Shown here: positions 46,995 to 53,710 of the stretch, one piece after another
How positions within the stretch are numbered: position 1 is the stretch's first letter
How the letters are laid out: each line of letters starts with the position of its first letter
NCBI RefSeq assembly: GCF_002157505.1
Contig: NZ_NFSC01000029.1
Coordinates: 62,001 to 126,000 of the forward strand
Length of the DNA: 64,000 bases
Direction of reading: 5' to 3'
From: Arthrobacter agilis
GTDB taxonomy: Bacteria; Actinomycetota; Actinomycetes; Actinomycetales; Micrococcaceae
Made by a program: the position numbers and the translations under genes
Notes under the pieces: model-generated
What the model was told of the DNA's origin: nothing
The model's database searches: none
Seen by the model: only the letters and a program-made list of their open reading frames with translations

Positions 46995-47666
46995 TCAGGT
47001 ACCGGCGCCGATGAGGAACTGCGCGGTGTCCTGCATGTGTTCTTCGACCGCACGGGTCGCACCGACGGCGTCGCCGGTCTTGATGGCCTCGACGATGCTC
47101 GCATGGCGGTGGGGGCTCATGTTGCTGAGCGCCCGTTCCACTCCCGCGTACATGACGCTCATCCGGATGGATCCTTCGAGGGATTTCCAGGAGTGGAGGA
47201 GTGTCGGGTTCCCTGTCAGGAAGCAGAGCGCCTGGTGGAAGTCGAGATCCGCTTCGATGCGCTCGTCGAGGTCACCGTCGGACGAGTCCTCCATGCGCTG
47301 GATCGCGTCCTCGAGCTTCTTCACCACCGCGTCCCGGTTGTCCTGCTCCGACAGCATCCGGGCAGCGAGTCCTTCCAGCGCTGCACGCACCTGGAAGATG
47401 TCCCGGACGTCGCTGGCTCCGAGGTGGCGAACGGCAAGCCGCCCCCGCGCCCCGGCTGAGATCAGGCCTTCCTGCTGCAGCTGCCGCATGGCCTCCCGCA
47501 GTGTTCCGCGACTGATCTGCAGCTTCTCGGACAACTCCGTCTCCACCAGGTGCGTGCCGGGTGCGAGTTCCCCGGTCGTGATGGCCCGGCGAAGAGCGGT
47601 GAGGGCCTGCTCGCGGAGGTTGCTCCTGGCCAGCCCTCCGAGAAGTGATGCTGGTGCTGCCGTCAT
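46995..47666 (-). CDS. GntR/FadR-type transcriptional regulator of the transketolase locus
   Basis: This 223-residue protein has a winged helix at residues 12-80 (REQALTALRRAITTGELAPG, LSEKLQISRGTLREAMRQLQ) and an FCD ligand-binding domain after it (RDIFQVRAALEGLAARMLSE). FCD regulators sense sugar acids, organic acids or sugar phosphates. Its own promoter holds two TGTYRACA cores in a palindrome 22 bases before the ATG. The same core recurs in the control regions at 51.1 and 53 kb, so it probably controls the whole catabolic locus. Confidence 0.85.
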   Translation of the reverse strand: MTAAPASLLGGLARSNLREQALTALRRAITTGELAPGTHLVETELSEKLQISRGTLREAMRQLQQEGLISAGARGRLAVRHLGASDVRDIFQVRAALEGLAARMLSEQDNRDAVVKKLEDAIQRMEDSSDGDLDERIEADLDFHQALCFLTGNPTLLHSWKSLEGSIRMSVMYAGVERALSNMSPHRHASIVEAIKTGDAVGATRAVEEHMQDTAQFLIGAGT

Positions 47667-47687
47667 GGAAATCCTCCGCCAGTCGCT

Positions 47688-47713
47688 ATTGTCGACATTC
47701 CGATGTCAACAAT
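47688..47713. promoter_or_regulatory. GntR operator (autoregulatory site)
   Basis: ATTGTCGACAT (47688-47698) and ATGTCAACAAT (47703-47713) form an 11-4-11 palindrome with one mismatch. The cores TGTCGACA and TGTCAACA match the other sites of the locus. It ends 22 bases before the regulator's ATG. Confidence 0.7.
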
Positions 47714-47777
47714 GATCCTACAAACCGGCAGATGCAGGTCCGGTCACCGGCGCCGGGGATGCCGGTCGAGCAATACG

Positions 47778-48797
47778 TCATGACAGCTCGCTGAGGACCT
47801 TCTGCACGATCCGCTCGCGGGAGAGCCCGTACTTCTCGTGGAGGGTGGGCAGGGCGCCGGCGTCGAGGAACAGGTCGGGCAGGGCGATCGGCACGATCCT
47901 GGTGCCGGCACCATGCCGAACAGCCACGCCGGCCACGGTCTCGAACAGGCCGCCCACCTCGGTGTGGTTCTCGAGGGTGACGACGAGGCGATCCTTGCCC
48001 AGCTCGCGGAGGATGGTCTCGTTGTCGAAGGGCTTGATGGTGGGGGAATGGATGACGGCGACGTCGACGTGATGACGTGCGAGTTCCTCGGCCGCCTGGA
48101 GCGCCCGCATGGTCATCAGGCCGCTGGAGATGAAGACGACGTCGCGGCCCGGGCGTAGTTCCTTGGCCTTGCCGAGCTCGAACGTGTAGTCGTACTCGTC
48201 GAGGACGGTCGGCACGTTGCCCCTGAGCAGGCGGAGATAGGTCGGCCCCTCGGACGCGGCCAGCTGGGGCACGGCCTGCTCGATGTCCACCGAGTCGCAG
48301 GGATCCACGATGGTGAGGTTCGGCATGCCGCGGAAGATGGCGATGTCCTCAGTCGCCTGGTGGCTGGGGCCGTACCCCGTCGTCAGCCCCGGGAGACCGC
48401 CGACGATGTTGACGTTGAGGTTCGGTTCGGCGATGTCCAGGCAGAGGAAGTCGTAGGCGCGTCGGGCTGCGAAGACCGCGTACGTGGAGGCGAAGGGGAC
48501 GAGACCGGTTTCTGCCATTCCTGCAGCAGCACCGACCAGGAGTTGTTCGGCCATTCCCATCTGGAAGAAGCGTTCGGGGAATGCCTTGGCGAAGATGTGC
48601 ATGTCGGTGTACTTGCCGAGATCTGCCGTCAGACCCACGATGCGCGGGTCCTGTTCCGCGGCTTTGACCAGTGCGTGGCCGAAAGGCGCAGGAGCGGTCT
48701 TCTGGCCCGGGTCGGCGAAGGACGCGATCATGGCTGAGGTCTTCAGCTTCGGCTTCACGGCTGTCGTGGTGTCGGGGGCCTCGGTGGTGGTGCTCAT
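47778..48797 (-). CDS. Transketolase, C-terminal subunit
   Basis: This 339-residue pyrimidine-binding plus C-terminal half of a split transketolase has FGHALVKAAEQDPRIVGLTA, RFFQMGMAEQLLVGAAAGMA with the catalytic Glu, FASTYAVFAARRAYDFL, and a C-terminal TLENHTEVGGLFETVAGVA. It acts with the adjacent N-terminal subunit, both binding TPP at the shared site. ATG overlaps the stop of the partner by four bases (ATGA), fixing equimolar translation. In this locus it probably serves a specific catabolic step, not the housekeeping pentose phosphate cycle. Confidence 0.87.
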   Translation of the reverse strand: MSTTTEAPDTTTAVKPKLKTSAMIASFADPGQKTAPAPFGHALVKAAEQDPRIVGLTADLGKYTDMHIFAKAFPERFFQMGMAEQLLVGAAAGMAETGLVPFASTYAVFAARRAYDFLCLDIAEPNLNVNIVGGLPGLTTGYGPSHQATEDIAIFRGMPNLTIVDPCDSVDIEQAVPQLAASEGPTYLRLLRGNVPTVLDEYDYTFELGKAKELRPGRDVVFISSGLMTMRALQAAEELARHHVDVAVIHSPTIKPFDNETILRELGKDRLVVTLENHTEVGGLFETVAGVAVRHGAGTRIVPIALPDLFLDAGALPTLHEKYGLSRERIVQKVLSELS

Positions 48798-49708
48798 GCC
48801 TGGGACCCTTTCATGTGTCCTTCGGTGAGTTGATTCCTGCAGATCTGCCATTCGTGCTCTTCGATGCGCATGAAGTGGGCCTTTTCCCGCTCTTCGAGCA
48901 GGGGTACGCCCTTGCCCACCTTCGTGTCGCACAGGATCACGGAGGGTCGCCCGGTCGCGGCGGCCTCGCGAGTGATGTTGTCGAGTGCCTCCAGGAGGGC
49001 GGCTGCGTCGTTTCCGTTCACGCGCTGGGTGTACCAGCCGAAGGACGCCCACTTGTCCGCCGCGGGCTCGATGCTCAACACTGTGCTCGTCGCACCGTCG
49101 GCCTGCAGGGCGTTCATGTCCACCAGGGCGGTGAGGTTCCCCAACCGGTGGTGGTGGGCGCCCATGGCTGCTTCCCACGTCGATCCCTCGTCGAGTTCGC
49201 CATCGGAGAGGAAGTTGAAGACCCGCGACGGGGACTTCTGGAAGCGGAGCCCCAGTGCCATGCCGACGGCCACGCCCAGGCCGTGGCCCAGCGAGCCTCC
49301 CGAGATCTCCATGCCCGGCGTGTAGGACGCCATGCCCGACATGGGCAGCCGGGACTCATCGGAACCATAGGTGTCCAATTCGTCGACGGGGATGATGCCG
49401 GCTTCCGCGAGGGCGGCATAGTGGCCGATGGCGTAGTGGCCCGTGGAGAGCAGGAACCGGTCGCGGCCGTTCCAGTGCGGGTCCTCGGGCCGGTACCGGA
49501 GCTGGTCCGCGTAGACGGCCGCGAAGATGTCGGCCGAGCCCAGCGCCTGGCCGACGTAGCCCTGTCCCTGGACTTCCCCCATGTCCAGCGCATGGTGTCG
49601 GGCCCGGTAGGCAGCTGCTGCGACCTTGCCGACCCGCTCGGGAAAGTCGGTGTGGCCTGCGTCGCGGTCGTGGGTTGTGGTGGATGTCGGGGTTGGTGTC
49701 AGGGTCAT
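48794..49708 (-). CDS. Transketolase, N-terminal subunit
   Basis: This 304-residue TPP pyrophosphate-binding half has GRDRFLLSTGHYAIGHYAAL, MEISGGSLGHGLGVAVGMAL and SDGELDEGSTWEAAMGAHHH (the GDGE-type metal motif, here SDGE). N and D ligands follow in LTALVDMN. Together with the next gene it forms a complete transketolase. The change of the usual GDGE to SDGE is seen in split enzymes. The MFS carrier gene precedes it by 34 bases, making an MFS-TK-TK operon. Confidence 0.87.
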   Translation of the reverse strand: MTLTPTPTSTTTHDRDAGHTDFPERVGKVAAAAYRARHHALDMGEVQGQGYVGQALGSADIFAAVYADQLRYRPEDPHWNGRDRFLLSTGHYAIGHYAALAEAGIIPVDELDTYGSDESRLPMSGMASYTPGMEISGGSLGHGLGVAVGMALGLRFQKSPSRVFNFLSDGELDEGSTWEAAMGAHHHRLGNLTALVDMNALQADGATSTVLSIEPAADKWASFGWYTQRVNGNDAAALLEALDNITREAAATGRPSVILCDTKVGKGVPLLEEREKAHFMRIEEHEWQICRNQLTEGHMKGSQA

Positions 49709-49742
49709 GAGGTGTTCCTTCTGTTCCCGGTGGGGGTGTCGG

Positions 49743-51080
49743 TCAGACGTGCTGGGGCAAGGGAACAGACTTGCCGGCCTCGTCGGCGAGCCGGCGTTCC
49801 CGGGGGCCCCAGGTCTCACGGGTCATGAGTGCCGCGACGAGGCCGATGAGGGCGTAGGTGGAGAACAGCAGGGCCGGGCCGAGCCAGCCGAGCTGGATGT
49901 ACAGCAGGGTGGTGATGAACGGGGTGAACCCGGACACCATCGCCGAGATCTGGTAGGACAGGGAGGCTCCGGAGGCCCGGGTCTTGGCCTGGAAGAGCTC
50001 CGGGAACCATGCGCCCTGCGCGCCGGCGAGCGAGTTCTGGCAGACGGCGTAGGAGATGACGATGGTGATCATGATGCAGATGAACAGGCCCGTGTTCGCG
50101 AGGAGGAACATGGGGATGCCGAAGAGGGCGGCGAAGGCGCAGGACCAGATATAGAGCGGCCGGCGTCCGATGCGATCGGTGAGCCGCGCCCAACCCATGG
50201 TGGCGAAGATGCCGATGAATGATGCGACGCACAGGGATGTCAGAGTCTCGGTCCGTGTCGCAAGCTCGGTCGTGTTGAGGTACGAGATCATGTAGGTCAC
50301 GGCCACGGCATAGCCGGCGGTCTCGGCGACGCGGAGGCAGATGCCGCGCACGATGCTGCGCCAGTCCTGTCGGATGACCTGCACGATCGGGTTCTTGACG
50401 ATATCGCCGTGGTCCTTGACGTCCTCGAAGACCGGCGACTCGGGAACCTTCGACCGGATGATCAGGCCGACGATGACCAGGAGGATGCTGGCGAGGAAGG
50501 GTATCCGCCAGGCCCAGTCGCCGATCAGGTTGGCGCTGGAGAGGAAGACGAGGTTGGCCAGGAGAAGTCCGACGGGGAAGCCTGCCTGGACGATGCCGGT
50601 GTACTTGCCCTTGGACTTCCAGGGGGCGTGTTCGTAGCTCATGAGGATCGCCCCACCCCACTCGGCGCCGAACGCGAGCCCCTGGATGATGCGGACGATG
50701 ACCAGCAGGACCGGGGCGAGGATGCCCACGGTGGCGTACGTGGGCAGCAGGCCGATGGCGAAGGTCGCCAGGCCCATGATGATCAGGGAGGCCACCAGGA
50801 CGGGCTTGCGGCCGACCTTGTCGCCGAGATGGCCACCGATGATGCCGCCCAGGGGGCGGGCGGCGAAGCCGACCCCGAGGGTGGCGAACGAGGCCAGCGT
50901 CGCGGTCACGGGATCGGCTCCGGGGAAGAACGCCGGGCCGAAGTAGAGGGCGGCGGCAGTTCCGAAGCCGATGAAGTCATAGGTCTCGATGACTGCCCCG
51001 ACGCCGGATCCGACAGCTACTTTGCGGGCATCCTTCGTTCCATGGACGTGGCCTCGCATCTGCAGAGCTTCGTTGCTCAT
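49743..51080 (-). CDS. MHS-family MFS transporter
   Basis: This 445-residue proton symporter has 12 membrane segments. VIETYDFIGFGTAAALYF at helix 1, GGIIGGHLGDKVGRKPVL in loop 2-3 and GLAFGAEWGGAILMSYEHAP after helix 4 are MHS-family signatures (KgtP, ShiA, ProP relatives, which carry organic acids and polyols). It is the first gene of the operon with the split transketolase and so probably brings in the substrate. ATG 51080 is six bases after AAAGGA. Confidence 0.85.
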   Translation of the reverse strand: MSNEALQMRGHVHGTKDARKVAVGSGVGAVIETYDFIGFGTAAALYFGPAFFPGADPVTATLASFATLGVGFAARPLGGIIGGHLGDKVGRKPVLVASLIIMGLATFAIGLLPTYATVGILAPVLLVIVRIIQGLAFGAEWGGAILMSYEHAPWKSKGKYTGIVQAGFPVGLLLANLVFLSSANLIGDWAWRIPFLASILLVIVGLIIRSKVPESPVFEDVKDHGDIVKNPIVQVIRQDWRSIVRGICLRVAETAGYAVAVTYMISYLNTTELATRTETLTSLCVASFIGIFATMGWARLTDRIGRRPLYIWSCAFAALFGIPMFLLANTGLFICIMITIVISYAVCQNSLAGAQGAWFPELFQAKTRASGASLSYQISAMVSGFTPFITTLLYIQLGWLGPALLFSTYALIGLVAALMTRETWGPRERRLADEAGKSVPLPQHV

Positions 51081-51112
51081 GATCATTCCTTTGCTGAGGA
51101 GTGGGTTTGTCG

Positions 51113-51124
51113 ACTGTTAACAGT
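51113..51124. promoter_or_regulatory. GntR operator A, MFS-transketolase operon
   Basis: ACTGTTAACAGT is a perfect 12-bp palindrome 33 bases before the MFS start, with core TGTTAACA. A neighbouring TGTCGACT (51108-51115) overlaps it. It matches the autoregulatory site and the site at 52965. Confidence 0.65.
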
Positions 51125-51156
51125 GAACTGCTTCAAGTGTGACGCGAAGCACATTC

Positions 51157-51171
51157 ACTGTCAACAGTTGA
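51157..51171. promoter_or_regulatory. GntR operator B, MFS-transketolase operon
   Basis: ACTGTCAACAGT overlaps the perfect TCAACAGTTGA, with core TGTCAACA (51159-51166). Its core is 44 bases, about four helical turns, from that of operator A, a spacing that would permit cooperative binding. Confidence 0.6.
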
Positions 51172-51249
51172 CGGAGGGGTATCTCGAGGAGGGAGCGGGG
51201 GTCGGGTAATGGGACGCCCGACGGCGGCTGGACGTGGTCCGGCCCGCCC

Positions 51250-52023
51250 TTAGTGGATGTGACTGCCGCCGTTGATGTCGATCGTGGTCCCGGTGAGGTA
51301 CGAGGAGTCGTCGGAGGACAGGAACGTGATGACGGCCGCGATCTCCTCCGTCGTCGCGGTGCGGCCGAGGGGGATGTCCCTGGCCAGCGCCGCTTCCTGC
51401 TCCGGGGTGCTGCCGACGCGGATGTTGGTATCGACGGCGCCGGGGGTGACTGCGTTGACGGTGACTCCACTGTCGGCCAGTTCCCGCGCCAGGGCCTTCG
51501 TGAGCCCCAGGATCGCGGCCTTGGCGGCGGAATAGGGAACCTTCCCGAACACGCCGCCTCCTCGCTGGGCGGAGACCGAGGACATGTTGACGATCCGCCC
51601 CCAGCCGTTCTCGAGCATCGCCGGCAGGAAGGCCTTCGTCACCAGGTAGGTGCCGGTGGCGTTGACGGCCATCACCTTGTTCCAGAGCTCGAGCGTCGTA
51701 TCGAGGAACGGCACAGGGGAGGTGATGCCTGCGATGTTCGCCAGTGCCCCGACGGGAGGCAGATTGCCGGCGGCGACGTCGGCTGCCACGGCATCACGGG
51801 CTGCGGTGACGGAGGCTTCGTCGGTGACGTCGATCTCGTAACCGAAGCTGGGGACTGCGAATTCATTTCCGATGTCCGTCGCTACCTTGGCGGACGTCTC
51901 CCCGTCGAGGTCGAGGACGACGACGGCCCACCCGTCCCTGGCGTAGCGGCGGGCAGTCGTCACGCCGATTCCGCGAGGGGAGGTGGCTCCCGTGATGACG
52001 GCGGTTCGCTGAATGCTGGACAT
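51250..52023 (-). CDS. SDR family dehydrogenase of the transketolase locus
   Basis: This 257-residue NAD(P)-dependent oxidoreductase has TGATSPRGIGVTTARRYARD, a variant of TGxxxGIG with two inserted residues. NIAGITSPVPFLDTT, IVNMSSVSAQRGGGVFGKVP and YSAAKAAILGLTKALAREL with catalytic Tyr and Lys follow. C-terminal ITFLSSDDSSYLTGTTIDIN is classical. It begins seven bases after the isomerase gene, so the two form an operon. It probably oxidises a sugar or polyol substrate in the pathway. Confidence 0.85.
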   Translation of the reverse strand: MSSIQRTAVITGATSPRGIGVTTARRYARDGWAVVVLDLDGETSAKVATDIGNEFAVPSFGYEIDVTDEASVTAARDAVAADVAAGNLPPVGALANIAGITSPVPFLDTTLELWNKVMAVNATGTYLVTKAFLPAMLENGWGRIVNMSSVSAQRGGGVFGKVPYSAAKAAILGLTKALARELADSGVTVNAVTPGAVDTNIRVGSTPEQEAALARDIPLGRTATTEEIAAVITFLSSDDSSYLTGTTIDINGGSHIH

Positions 52024-52030
52024 GATTCTC

Positions 52031-52915
52031 CTAATTCGGGGTCTGGTCGCCGATGCCGGATAGGACACCGGGCGCAGTGCTGTTGGTGATGAGCTGGGAG
52101 ATGAAGCGCGCGGCTGCTGCCGTGGCTTCCGGTCGTTGATCGTCTCTGACATCCCGCGTTTCGAGCTCGAGGGCGAAGCGCCCCTGATACCCGGCGTCGG
52201 CGAGGGCCCGGAGGCCGGCGGCGAAGTCCGCCTGTCCGTTGCCGATACTCAGATTGATGTTGCCGGGAACCGCATCCCGAAGGTGGATGTGGCGGATGCG
52301 GTCGGAGAAGAGCCGGACGAATTCCACCGGATCCCCTCCGGACGCGACGATGTGGCTGAAATCCATGACGAGGCCCACGGACTCCTGGGGCACCCTGTCC
52401 AGCAGCTGCTGGGTGCGGTCGATGTCCCAGCAGAGGCGGAAGAAGTGGGGTGCCTCGACCCAGATCTCGACGCCTGCCGCGGCTGCGCGGTCGGCTGCAT
52501 CGGTCAGGGCCGCGGTGATCAGGTCCAGGTCTTCATCGAAGGACACGAGCGGATCGTGAGACTGGGCGCCGCACGGCAGGACAAGTGCTGCCGCCCCGAT
52601 GGTCGACGCAAGGGCCAGGAGCATGTCGAGGTGCCCGTCCCTGTCGGTGCGCTCGGTTCGGGTCAACCGGGCGTTGAGGTCCCCGATGTCACCGTTGACC
52701 GAACGCACGCGCAGGCCCGAGCGCAGGACGTCGGAACTGACCTCGTTGACGGCTTGGGTGTCCAGGACGAACGGAACATGGTTGCACACCCCAGGAAGGG
52801 CGCCGAGATCCAGCTCGGCGAAACCTAATCCCTGCATGGTTCCCAGTGCCGTCGGCAGATCCTGGTGCCGGAAGCTGATGGATGAACACACCACTCGGGG
52901 ATGGAACATCGTCAT
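52031..52915 (-). CDS. Sugar isomerase/epimerase TIM-barrel protein of the transketolase locus
   Basis: This is a 294-residue xylose-isomerase-like barrel: GTMQGLGFAELDLGALPGV, EIWVEAPHFFRLCWDIDRTQ, then VGLVMDFSHIVASGGDPVEF with a metal-site Asp and His, and RIRHIHLRDAVPGNINLSIG. It resembles hydroxypyruvate isomerase- and tagatose 3-epimerase-like enzymes. It heads an isomerase-SDR operon under the palindrome at 52965. A second start at 52909 is possible. The substrate is unknown but probably a short sugar or sugar acid. Confidence 0.78.
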   Translation of the reverse strand: MTMFHPRVVCSSISFRHQDLPTALGTMQGLGFAELDLGALPGVCNHVPFVLDTQAVNEVSSDVLRSGLRVRSVNGDIGDLNARLTRTERTDRDGHLDMLLALASTIGAAALVLPCGAQSHDPLVSFDEDLDLITAALTDAADRAAAAGVEIWVEAPHFFRLCWDIDRTQQLLDRVPQESVGLVMDFSHIVASGGDPVEFVRLFSDRIRHIHLRDAVPGNINLSIGNGQADFAAGLRALADAGYQGRFALELETRDVRDDQRPEATAAAARFISQLITNSTAPGVLSGIGDQTPN

Positions 52916-52964
52916 TGACCCTCACTGTTGCCGAACGTGACGTCAAGCACACTACGCATTTCAC

Positions 52965-52979
52965 TGTTGACAGTCAACA
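52965..52979. promoter_or_regulatory. GntR operator C between divergent isomerase genes
   Basis: TGTTGACAGTCAACA is a perfect 7-1-7 palindrome with core TGTTGACA. It lies 50 bases before the isomerase-SDR operon and 135 bases before the RpiB-like gene, so the regulator can act on both. Confidence 0.65.
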
Positions 52980-53113
52980 CTTGCGTCCACAGGGCGGAGT
53001 CGCACCACCGGAGCGAAACCCGTCTCGTTGACAGCCGATGGTCACCGGGAAACACTGAAGTGACGTGGAGCACACGGCCGATCGCGGCAGCGGATGCTGA
53101 CAGGAGAGAAGGA

Positions 53114-53587
53114 ATGGAACAACTACGACTCGTGATCGGCTGTGACGACGCGGGACTGCGCTACAAGGAGGAACTGAAACGACTCCTCGAGTCGAGCGAC
53201 CAGGTGGATGCCGTGCTGGACGTCGGGGTTCAGCCGGATGAAGACACCGCGTACCCCAGCGTGGCCTTCGCGGCAGCCGGCGAGATTGCGGCAGGACGGG
53301 CCGACAGGGCCCTGCTGATCTGCGGAACGGGCCTGGGGGTCGCCATCAGCGCCAACAAGGTGGCCGGCATACGTGCTGTGACGGCCCATGACTCCTTCTC
53401 GGTGGAACGCGCAGTGCTCTCCAACAATGCGCAGGTCCTGTGCCTCGGTGAGCGGGTCATCGGACTCGAACTGGCCAAACGACTGGTCAGGGAGTGGCTC
53501 ACCTACCGTTTCGACGAGCAGTCGGCGTCCGCGAGCAAGGTCGCAGCAATCACCGAGTACGAGGAGCGGAACGGCGAGGCAGGCTGA
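53114..53587 (+). CDS. RpiB/LacA/LacB family sugar-phosphate isomerase
   Basis: This is a 157-residue protein. The usual phosphate-site GSDHAG is GCDDAG here (residues 9-14). The catalytic Cys70 lies in [20 protein letters not shown]. The region [20 protein letters not shown] differs from ribose-5-phosphate isomerase B and looks like the branch that isomerises C4 sugar phosphates such as erythrulose phosphates. Good ribosome site AGGAG/AAGGA before ATG 53114. It is divergent from the isomerase-SDR operon and shares its operator. Confidence 0.8.
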
Positions 53588-53638
53588 CCAGGACGGGGAT
53601 CGCCCAGCTGGCGTGCGTCCTGGGGGCAGCGACGGGCA

Positions 53639-53704
53639 GGACTGCGGCAGGGCTGCGGCAGGGCTGCGGCAGGGCTGCGGCAGGACAGCGGCAGGGCTGC
53701 GGCA
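53639..53704. repeat. Tandem repeat, six copies of an 11-bp unit
   Basis: Six consecutive 11-base units of the form GGGCTGCGGCA (two of them beginning GGAC) span 66 bases between the stop of the RpiB-like gene and the end of the gdx gene. The 11-bp period keeps phase with the DNA helix and is not a multiple of three. It is non-coding and likely prone to copy-number change. Confidence 0.85.
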
Positions 53705-53710
53705 GGACAG

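Follow-up and report, generated by a model that had tools for sequence, protein, structure and literature searches.

Annotation reads transketolases as enzymes of the pentose phosphate pathway, and the split form of the enzyme is known from a sugar pathway as the apulose-4-phosphate transketolase AptAB. The pathway of the four-carbon acid sugars comprises LtnD, OtnI, OtnK and OtnC (ygbJKLMN in Escherichia coli), and a threitol/erythritol pathway is known from Mycobacterium smegmatis. The split transketolase of Carboxydothermus hydrogenoformans is described as an active transketolase (PMC7661550); SqwGH, a 6-deoxy-6-sulfofructose transketolase, is described as a split enzyme acting on an unphosphorylated anionic ketose and encoded in a cluster with isomerases (PMC11659671). 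The latter source gives the phosphate-orienting motif as RSFHR in ordinary transketolases and RAFDR in the sulfofructose enzyme. Here we describe a locus with a split transketolase in a 64,000-nucleotide stretch of the Arthrobacter agilis genome (contig NZ_NFSC01000029.1, positions 62,001 to 126,000; hereafter the window). Its seven genes encode a GntR regulator, the two transketolase subunits TKN and TKC, an MFS carrier, a short-chain dehydrogenase/reductase (SDR), a TIM-barrel isomerase and an RpiB-like isomerase. An earlier, sequence-only reading had assigned these genes and their families; coordinates and the Pfam and NCBIfam profiles used for domain assignment bear it out, as they do the four-base overlap of the TKC and TKN reading frames and the lack of any kinase or aldolase among the seven genes. 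We consider the chances about evenly balanced that the locus is an operon serving to degrade a small hydroxy-carboxylate, most probably a C4 sugar acid of the threonate/erythronate kind, which would be oxidised and then cleaved while unphosphorylated.

The principal evidence is a remodelled transketolase active site, compared across 125 loci of Actinomycetota and Pseudomonadota in E. coli TktA numbering. These counts include three known duplicates (L140=L010, L213=L069, L137=L103), and one locus is uncovered at some positions, for which the denominator is 124. In TKN, His26 is replaced by Tyr and His100 by Ser at all 125 loci. In TKC, Ser385 and Phe434 have become Tyr and His461 has become Leu in 124/124 covered loci, Arg358 is replaced in the same 124/124, and the Asp469 position is deleted in 125/125, as judged by motif in 121 and by direct view of the alignment in four (L088, L227-L229). 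Against this background of change His66 and Arg520 are kept in every one of the 125 loci, and the catalytic Glu411 and His473 in all 124 covered. The thiamine diphosphate (ThDP)/Mg ligands Asp155 and Asn185 are likewise kept in all family rows aligned, so that cofactor ligands and catalytic Glu are both in place; the placement of His261 in the alignment is uncertain. Of the phosphate-binding set Arg358, Ser385, (Phe434), His461 and Arg520, only Arg520 is kept, a departure from the set expected for EC 2.2.1.1, and on our own mapping of these positions the phosphate motif reads x-Y-Y-L-R. The single-chain transketolase of the same genome keeps the canonical residues, as does E. coli TktA.

Of four other split transketolases, all of which depart from the family pattern, one (L123) nevertheless shares part of the changes, namely Tyr26, Leu461, the loss of Arg358 and the gap at 469. 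This enzyme is encoded on a Shinella sp. WSD5-1 plasmid (L123:2675-8099), in a single operon ordered mtnK - mtnA - split transketolase - RuBisCO-like protein, which suggests another non-canonical split transketolase, in methylthioribose use. Among the 60 plasmid matches to TKC listed of 655 records, identities between 94% and 57% are followed directly by values below 39%, a gap by which the relatives form a separate island. The annotated records viewed label family members simply 'transketolase'. At one locus, L088 of Pseudarthrobacter sp. Fe7, TKC matches in three pieces, and the gene therefore looks broken there.

Several of these replacements have been made individually in engineered E. coli transketolase. 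There S385Y is described as impeding phosphosugar binding, the Tyr385 side chain clashing with the substrate phosphate (PMC5073344), H26Y as reversing the C3 stereochemistry of the product, to 88% R, as cited in PMC3657141, and H100L as having been introduced with D469T to enable pyruvate as donor (PMC10787763). Since three of the four phosphate contacts are lost, phosphosugars are unlikely substrates, and the family probably makes no use of sugar phosphates in the usual way. The suspicion that the enzyme accepts an unphosphorylated substrate, already voiced in the sequence-only reading, is thus well supported at the level of sequence, and the retained Arg520 leaves room for one anionic group. 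We propose, though at somewhat less than an even chance, that the enzymes form an undescribed, widespread ThDP family which cleaves unphosphorylated oxo-sugar-acids, replaces the kinase and aldolase of the four-carbon acid sugar pathway and is the natural counterpart of laboratory-evolved transketolases (H26Y, H100X, S385Y, D469X).

Retention of Arg520 favours an alternative with the logic by which SqwGH is described as working (PMC11659671). An unphosphorylated ketose or keto-acid would act as donor and glyceraldehyde-3-phosphate as acceptor, giving xylulose-5-phosphate and direct entry into the pentose phosphate pathway, and kinase-free loci would need nothing more. We regard this as rather unlikely, since SqwGH keeps the first Arg, by its RAFDR motif, whereas in the present family Arg358 is lost and residue 385 is Tyr in every covered member, the substitution for which the phosphate clash in the E. 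coli enzyme is described (PMC5073344). Outright assignment of the window enzyme as a member of the SqwGH group conflicts with the active-site residues and was rejected.

The gene content of related loci shows which partners accompany this enzyme. A scan of named genomes with TKN supplied the loci (the best 80 of at least 585 relatives, all Actinomycetota), and their module content was scored by tblastn at fixed scores. A DhaK-type kinase lies inside the cluster in 40 of the 80, 38 of these also having RpiB, so that a sugar kinase does join the cluster in relatives, as the sequence-only reading had thought worth checking. A further 23 loci hold SDR, TIM barrel, carrier, transketolase and GntR without kinase or RpiB; among them L070 ends 132 bases past the SDR, and therefore cannot be judged for the kinase, and L021 ends about 2 kb past it. 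In seven loci only SDR, carrier, transketolase and GntR are present, with neither isomerase nor kinase at the scores used. RpiB without kinase, the arrangement of the window, recurs in two (L034, L047), and the remaining eight are arranged differently or truncated at the end of a contig. Dehydrogenase, split transketolase, carrier and regulator make up the conserved core; TIM barrel, DhaK-type kinase and RpiB are add-ons, and the missing kinase is optional. The earlier idea that all seven genes make up the functional unit has to give way to this smaller core, given the seven loci without isomerases and kinase. At the other extreme, L217 combines TRAP carrier, SDR, TIM barrel, DhaK, RpiB and transketolase in one locus.

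The add-on genes are those that an erythrulose/tetritol pathway would use. The SDR would then yield erythrulose, DhaK acting in trans would phosphorylate it, TIM barrel and RpiB would convert the product to erythrose-4-phosphate, and the transketolase would consume this. The 38 loci with both DhaK and RpiB in the cluster speak for such a scheme, as do the presence of a DhaK kinase in the window genome and the match of RpiB to the D-erythrulose-4-phosphate isomerase model (NF051858), although at 147.7 bits the match is below that model's cut-off of 240 and the protein passes TIGR02133 instead (193.5 bits, cut-off 168.2). An erythrulose kinase is absent from the window operon, the seven minimal loci lack both isomerases and kinase, most of the phosphate site is gone from the transketolase, and the carriers are of anion types. 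The erythrulose-phosphate reading fits the accessory genes and not the core, and we consider it improbable. For a formaldehyde (xylulose monophosphate) reading we found nothing beyond the co-occurrence of transketolase, DhaK and RpiB, and it was set aside.

Carriers and alternative dehydrogenases bear on the substrate class. Within 8 kb of TKC, tblastn detected MHS carriers at 92 of the 125 loci, TRAP at 16, ACS at five and GntP at two, with none detected at 10, three of which (L105, L116, L226) do have a carrier by profile. MHS and ACS carriers both belong to the MFS, TRAP and GntP are unrelated to them, and all typically carry organic anions. At eight loci (L059, L060, L065, L066, L068, L215, L223, L224) the transketolase unit includes an LtnD-like gene, in the order regulator - LtnD-like dehydrogenase - carrier (none detected in L215) - TKN - TKC. 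The L-threonate dehydrogenase model is the best NCBIfam match of all eight, at 188-227 bits against a cut-off of 350, and L059 and L068 have an SDR and TIM unit nearby as well. LtnD-like genes with higher scores, 306-311 bits, are found in an Azospirillum operon and beside two rhizobial operons. On a transketolase tree of 66 rows (65 loci plus the window, after near-identical actinobacterial loci had been thinned and L140, L213 and L137 removed), the LtnD label needs five changes, of which at least two are forced by well-supported branches; the dehydrogenase partner has therefore changed more than once. Two of the eight loci have further partners of this kind. The L223 carrier passes the gluconate:H+ symporter model and, for the GntP-family model PRK09821, reaches 472 of 524 bits; we take PRK09821 to be YgbN of the E. 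coli four-carbon-acid operon. In L066 a relative of D-threonate kinase (DUF1537; 70.9 of 450 bits) directly follows the transketolase. Because of these carriers and LtnD-like partners a sugar acid is favoured over a neutral sugar or polyol. The range offered in the sequence-only reading, a short or branched sugar, a polyol or a sugar acid, is thereby narrowed: as substrate, a sugar acid is more probable than a sugar, polyols also becoming less likely, and a C4 sugar acid is the leading, if unproven, candidate.

The SDR and split transketolase pair is also present in Pseudomonadota, in rhizobia and in other alpha-, beta- and gammaproteobacteria. The set viewed comprised 18 annotated plasmid loci, one of them from Arthrobacter, and two E. 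coli chromosomes, making 19 loci of Pseudomonadota. Regulators of the LysR type and carriers of the TRAP or ACS class predominate among them, and the SDR is found in 18 of the 19, L110 being the exception. No sugar kinase is annotated in the core operon of Klebsiella, Acinetobacter, Comamonadaceae, Aminobacter, Bradyrhizobium, E. coli and others, an absence limited by the incompleteness of the plasmid gene tables, and tblastn gave no DhaK match at these kinase-free cores. Shinella (L104) and Pararhizobium (L117) are exceptions with DhaK-type genes. In E. coli the pair occurs in 5 of 5426 genomes. The strain RM9513 (L126:7902-11191) has genes for an AdhE-like bifunctional dehydrogenase and an RraA-family protein directly after the transketolase genes, with a possible role in handling the released aldehyde, and nearby on the opposite strand is a fructoselysine-type operon with its own kinase.

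Some flanking genes in this phylum would suit a larger oxo-acid donor, 4-oxo-pentonate or 5-keto-gluconate, cleaved to tartronate or tartrate semialdehyde. In Aminobacter and Phyllobacterium the operon is bordered by a gene for a lactonase-like amidohydrolase and by sugar ABC genes, in Rhizobium phaseoli by sugar ABC genes, and several of the carriers resemble galactonate transporters. Yet the lactonase-like protein is only a distant relative of its best model (104 of 400 bits), and the LtnD-like partners and GntP carrier point to C4 acids. A larger donor is, in our judgement, quite unlikely.

That the kinase might lie elsewhere in the genome, as the sequence-only reading had allowed, has evidence in its favour. 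A PRK14479-type DhaK is encoded about 67 kb from the locus (C22:182.9-184.7 kb) and is 52% identical to the cluster kinase of L014. Its neighbours are an RpiB paralogue (69% identical), an LtnD-like dehydrogenase, a DUF1537 kinase relative, an ACS-type carrier (MFS), a TIM barrel and a GntR. Together with the kinase they make up a separate cluster (L097:2059-12711; C22:174-185 kb), apparently an independent locus for a four-carbon acid or a ketose. In each of the five genomes of the genus that have both transketolase and TIM barrel there is a DhaK 86-100% identical to that of the window genome, as against none of the three with transketolase but no TIM barrel; any DhaK at E <= 1e-100 is found in 13 of the 38 members of the genus, and in G002 the kinase is present and the transketolase absent. 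Among the relatives, DhaK is encoded elsewhere in the genome for 22 of the 23 SDR and TIM loci and for five of the seven SDR-only loci. The genus pattern being confounded by kinship and the test in relatives weak, a link between TIM barrel and DhaK is a hint only.

A further alternative is the reverse, synthetic direction, in which the ThDP enzyme joins C2 and C3 units (e.g. hydroxypyruvate, from a glycerate-like acid, and glycolaldehyde) to erythrulose, and DhaK, TIM barrel and RpiB lead on to erythrose-4-phosphate. Every accessory gene would thus be explained, and a one-substrate reaction of transketolase with hydroxypyruvate is reported (PMC7403953). Against this, no PRK14479-type DhaK is found at E <= 1e-100 in some genomes with the transketolase (G012, G013, G021), nor in seven of 36 relative genomes (one being the same strain as G021), counts that cover the PRK14479 type and for which two-subunit DhaK/DhaL was not looked for. 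Such a route would furthermore be wasteful for a C3 acid, and glycerate as the acid has no direct support. We hold the synthetic direction to be very improbable.

Returning to the preferred reading, oxidation and cleavage of a small sugar acid, the following sequence of steps may be envisaged. The MHS symporter would import the anion, and the SDR would oxidise one hydroxyl to give an oxo-acid or hydroxyketone. TKN/TKC would then attack this unphosphorylated compound and break the bond next to the keto group, either by decarboxylation, with release of CO2, or by ketol transfer, and would yield small aldehydes or ketoses that bear no phosphate, for instance glyceraldehyde, dihydroxyacetone, erythrulose or glyoxylate. 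If the enzyme works on an unphosphorylated substrate, the cleavage step needs no kinase. Where the further genes are present, the TIM barrel may isomerise a product, the DhaK-type kinase phosphorylate it and RpiB isomerise the phosphate; phosphorylation, if any, would thus follow cleavage, in the window genome through the distant kinase.

A number of observations weigh against this reading. Of the four phosphate contacts Arg520 survives, and some phosphate binding is therefore possible. In 38 of the 80 loci kinase and RpiB stand next to the transketolase, which could point to a pathway that usually proceeds by way of phosphates. Since H26Y reverses C3 stereochemistry in the engineered enzyme, a neutral ketose of unusual stereochemistry is possible. 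MHS, ACS, TRAP and GntP carriers can also carry non-acids. The LtnD-like proteins (188-311 bits against 350) and the threonate-kinase-like protein (70.9 against 450) are relatives, unproven as members, of their families, and the LtnD family also holds semialdehyde reductases, the tartronate semialdehyde and hydroxyisobutyrate models matching lower. Finally, at four of the 125 loci neither SDR nor LtnD was detected nearby.

The SDR forms one orthologous family, with an invariant SSVSAQRGGG loop and YSAAK in 19 sequences aligned across phyla. PDB entries 7KRK/7KRM fall in this family (427 bits to the family profile as against 234 for the next), and an Acinetobacter operon of the order SDR-MFS-TK-TK encodes an SDR near-identical to 7KRK (513 bits). 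Both were deposited under a FabG-like name, 3-oxoacyl-ACP reductase; the genome context of the family says otherwise, and the entries are probably misnamed. No open-access literature on them was found. In the TIM barrel, Glu154, Asp185, His211 and Glu250 are invariant in an alignment of 26 and are presumably metal ligands; with the PF01261 fold, these conserved Glu/Asp/His/Glu residues place the protein in the TIM-barrel isomerase/epimerase class. Its AlphaFold2 model has a predicted local distance difference test score (pLDDT) of 89, and among the 50 structural matches listed the nearest folds are ketose 3-epimerases and other sugar isomerases, at 12-18% identity. As these are generic sugar epimerase/isomerase matches, no substrate can be named from them.

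Features of the locus, in window positions.
Feature	Position	Strand	Assignment or basis
gntR, FCD-type GntR regulator	46995..47666	-	PF07729 + PF00392
Looser palindrome TTGTCGACATTCCGATGTCAACAA 5' of gntR	47689..47712	.	75% palindromic
TKC, pyrimidine-binding and C-terminal subunit of split ThDP enzyme	47778..48797	-	PF02779 + PF02780 (Transket_pyr + Transketolase_C)
TKN, ThDP/Mg-binding subunit	48794..49708	-	PF00456 (Transketolase_N)
MHS-type MFS carrier, organic anion:H+ symporter class	49743..51086	-	TIGR00883
Operator ACTGTTAACAGT	51113..51124	.	exact match, candidate site
Operator ACTGTCAACAGT	51157..51168	.	exact match, candidate site
SDR dehydrogenase	51250..52023	-	Pfam
TIM-barrel isomerase/epimerase	52031..52915	-	PF01261
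Operator between TIM and rpiB, ACTGTCAACAGT on - strand	52963..52974	.	exact match, candidate site
rpiB, RpiB-like isomerase	53114..53587	+	TIGR02133 above curated cut-off

The window carrier has TIGR00883 as its best NCBIfam match, but with 342.3 bits stays under the MHS-family cut-off of 443.45, and its 299 bits for the shikimate transporter model are also below cut-off. TKN, TKC, SDR and TIM barrel have no NCBIfam match above an equivalog cut-off. GntR identity is 59-74% in most of the 80 relatives and 64-95% within the genus. The TIM-SDR pair is inverted in the window relative to most of these 80 loci; the nearest relative, G005, shares the window gene order, rpiB included (94% conserved), which speaks against an assembly error. 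Just 3' of rpiB, at window 53635-53706, is an 11-base tandem repeat (GGCAGGGCTGC, 6.5 copies).

Exact ACTGTYAACAGT occurs at three places in the 3.88 Mb genome, all at the locus, the rightmost being closer to the TIM gene than to rpiB. The single match to the operator pattern off the locus has one mismatch and, since with one mismatch allowed a reversed control pattern gives eight matches against seven for the operator pattern, only exact matches are meaningful. The pattern is absent from the distant DhaK locus of the same genome, where it was searched for. Of the 80 relatives, 71 met an arrangement and score filter, and all 71 have motif words 5' of the carrier gene, at a density of 21.6 per kb compared with 0.015 per kb elsewhere, or about 1400-fold; strict motif words 5' of gntR are found in only 25 of the 71. 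TKN, TKC and SDR have no operator of their own and would share the regulation only through membership of the operon. The palindromes that the sequence-only reading took to be shared by the whole set thus hold as three exact, locus-specific operators, and do not extend to a site for each gene, that of gntR being looser. GntR may be expected to regulate the set through these shared palindromes.

If the proposal is correct, soil and plant-associated bacteria have here a way of bringing small sugar acids into metabolism that needs no kinase, and the ThDP enzymes form a natural catalyst set bearing changes that enzyme engineers introduced one by one; for the SDR family a solved structure already exists in 7KRK/7KRM. 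No described pathway with this gene set, and no work on the cluster itself, was recognised in the open-access literature, as judged from titles and abstract openings.

Of the known systems, the C. hydrogenoformans split transketolase (PDB 6YAJ/6YAK) has the same two-subunit N/C organisation and is nearest in sequence among solved structures (200 and 226 bits). The catalytic Glu of the two enzymes aligns, but the C. hydrogenoformans enzyme, unlike that of the window, retains Arg, His and Asp at their canonical places. Nor does AptAB fit, as far as the proteins so labelled show. A protein labelled AptB is 30% identical to TKC, and the pair labelled AptAB (labels unverified) keeps His26, His100, Arg358, His461 and Asp469, unlike the window enzyme; as far as the labelled pair can stand for AptAB, these active-site residues conflict with a reading as apulose-4-phosphate transketolase, the enzyme with which the sequence-only reading had suggested a comparison. 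On an Apilactobacillus plasmid (L122:5124-6852), genes labelled aptA/aptB have neighbours labelled ddl, COQ5 and ilvE, and the apulose label is probably wrong there.

The four-carbon acid pathway resembles the present loci in the LtnD-like dehydrogenase and GntP carrier by the transketolase in L223 and in the DUF1537 kinase relative in L066. Searched with Pfam and NCBIfam, the window locus has no LtnD with OtnK/OtnC; LtnD-like genes, all scoring below cut-off, are confined to related loci and to the separate DhaK locus of the window genome. Where that pathway has OtnK and OtnC, the ThDP enzyme would here replace kinase and aldolase. SqwGH is described as combining its RAFDR motif with a phosphorylated acceptor; the window enzyme, with x-Y-Y-L-R, lacks RAFDR, the two being set apart here by motif. 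Among engineered enzymes, the E. coli variant S385Y/D469T/R520Q shares Tyr385 and the lost Asp469 with the window transketolase, and other variants described carry H26Y or a change at His100 (PMC5073344, PMC3657141, PMC10787763). Those are laboratory products, whereas the window family keeps Arg520 and has had at least six positions changed together in nature.

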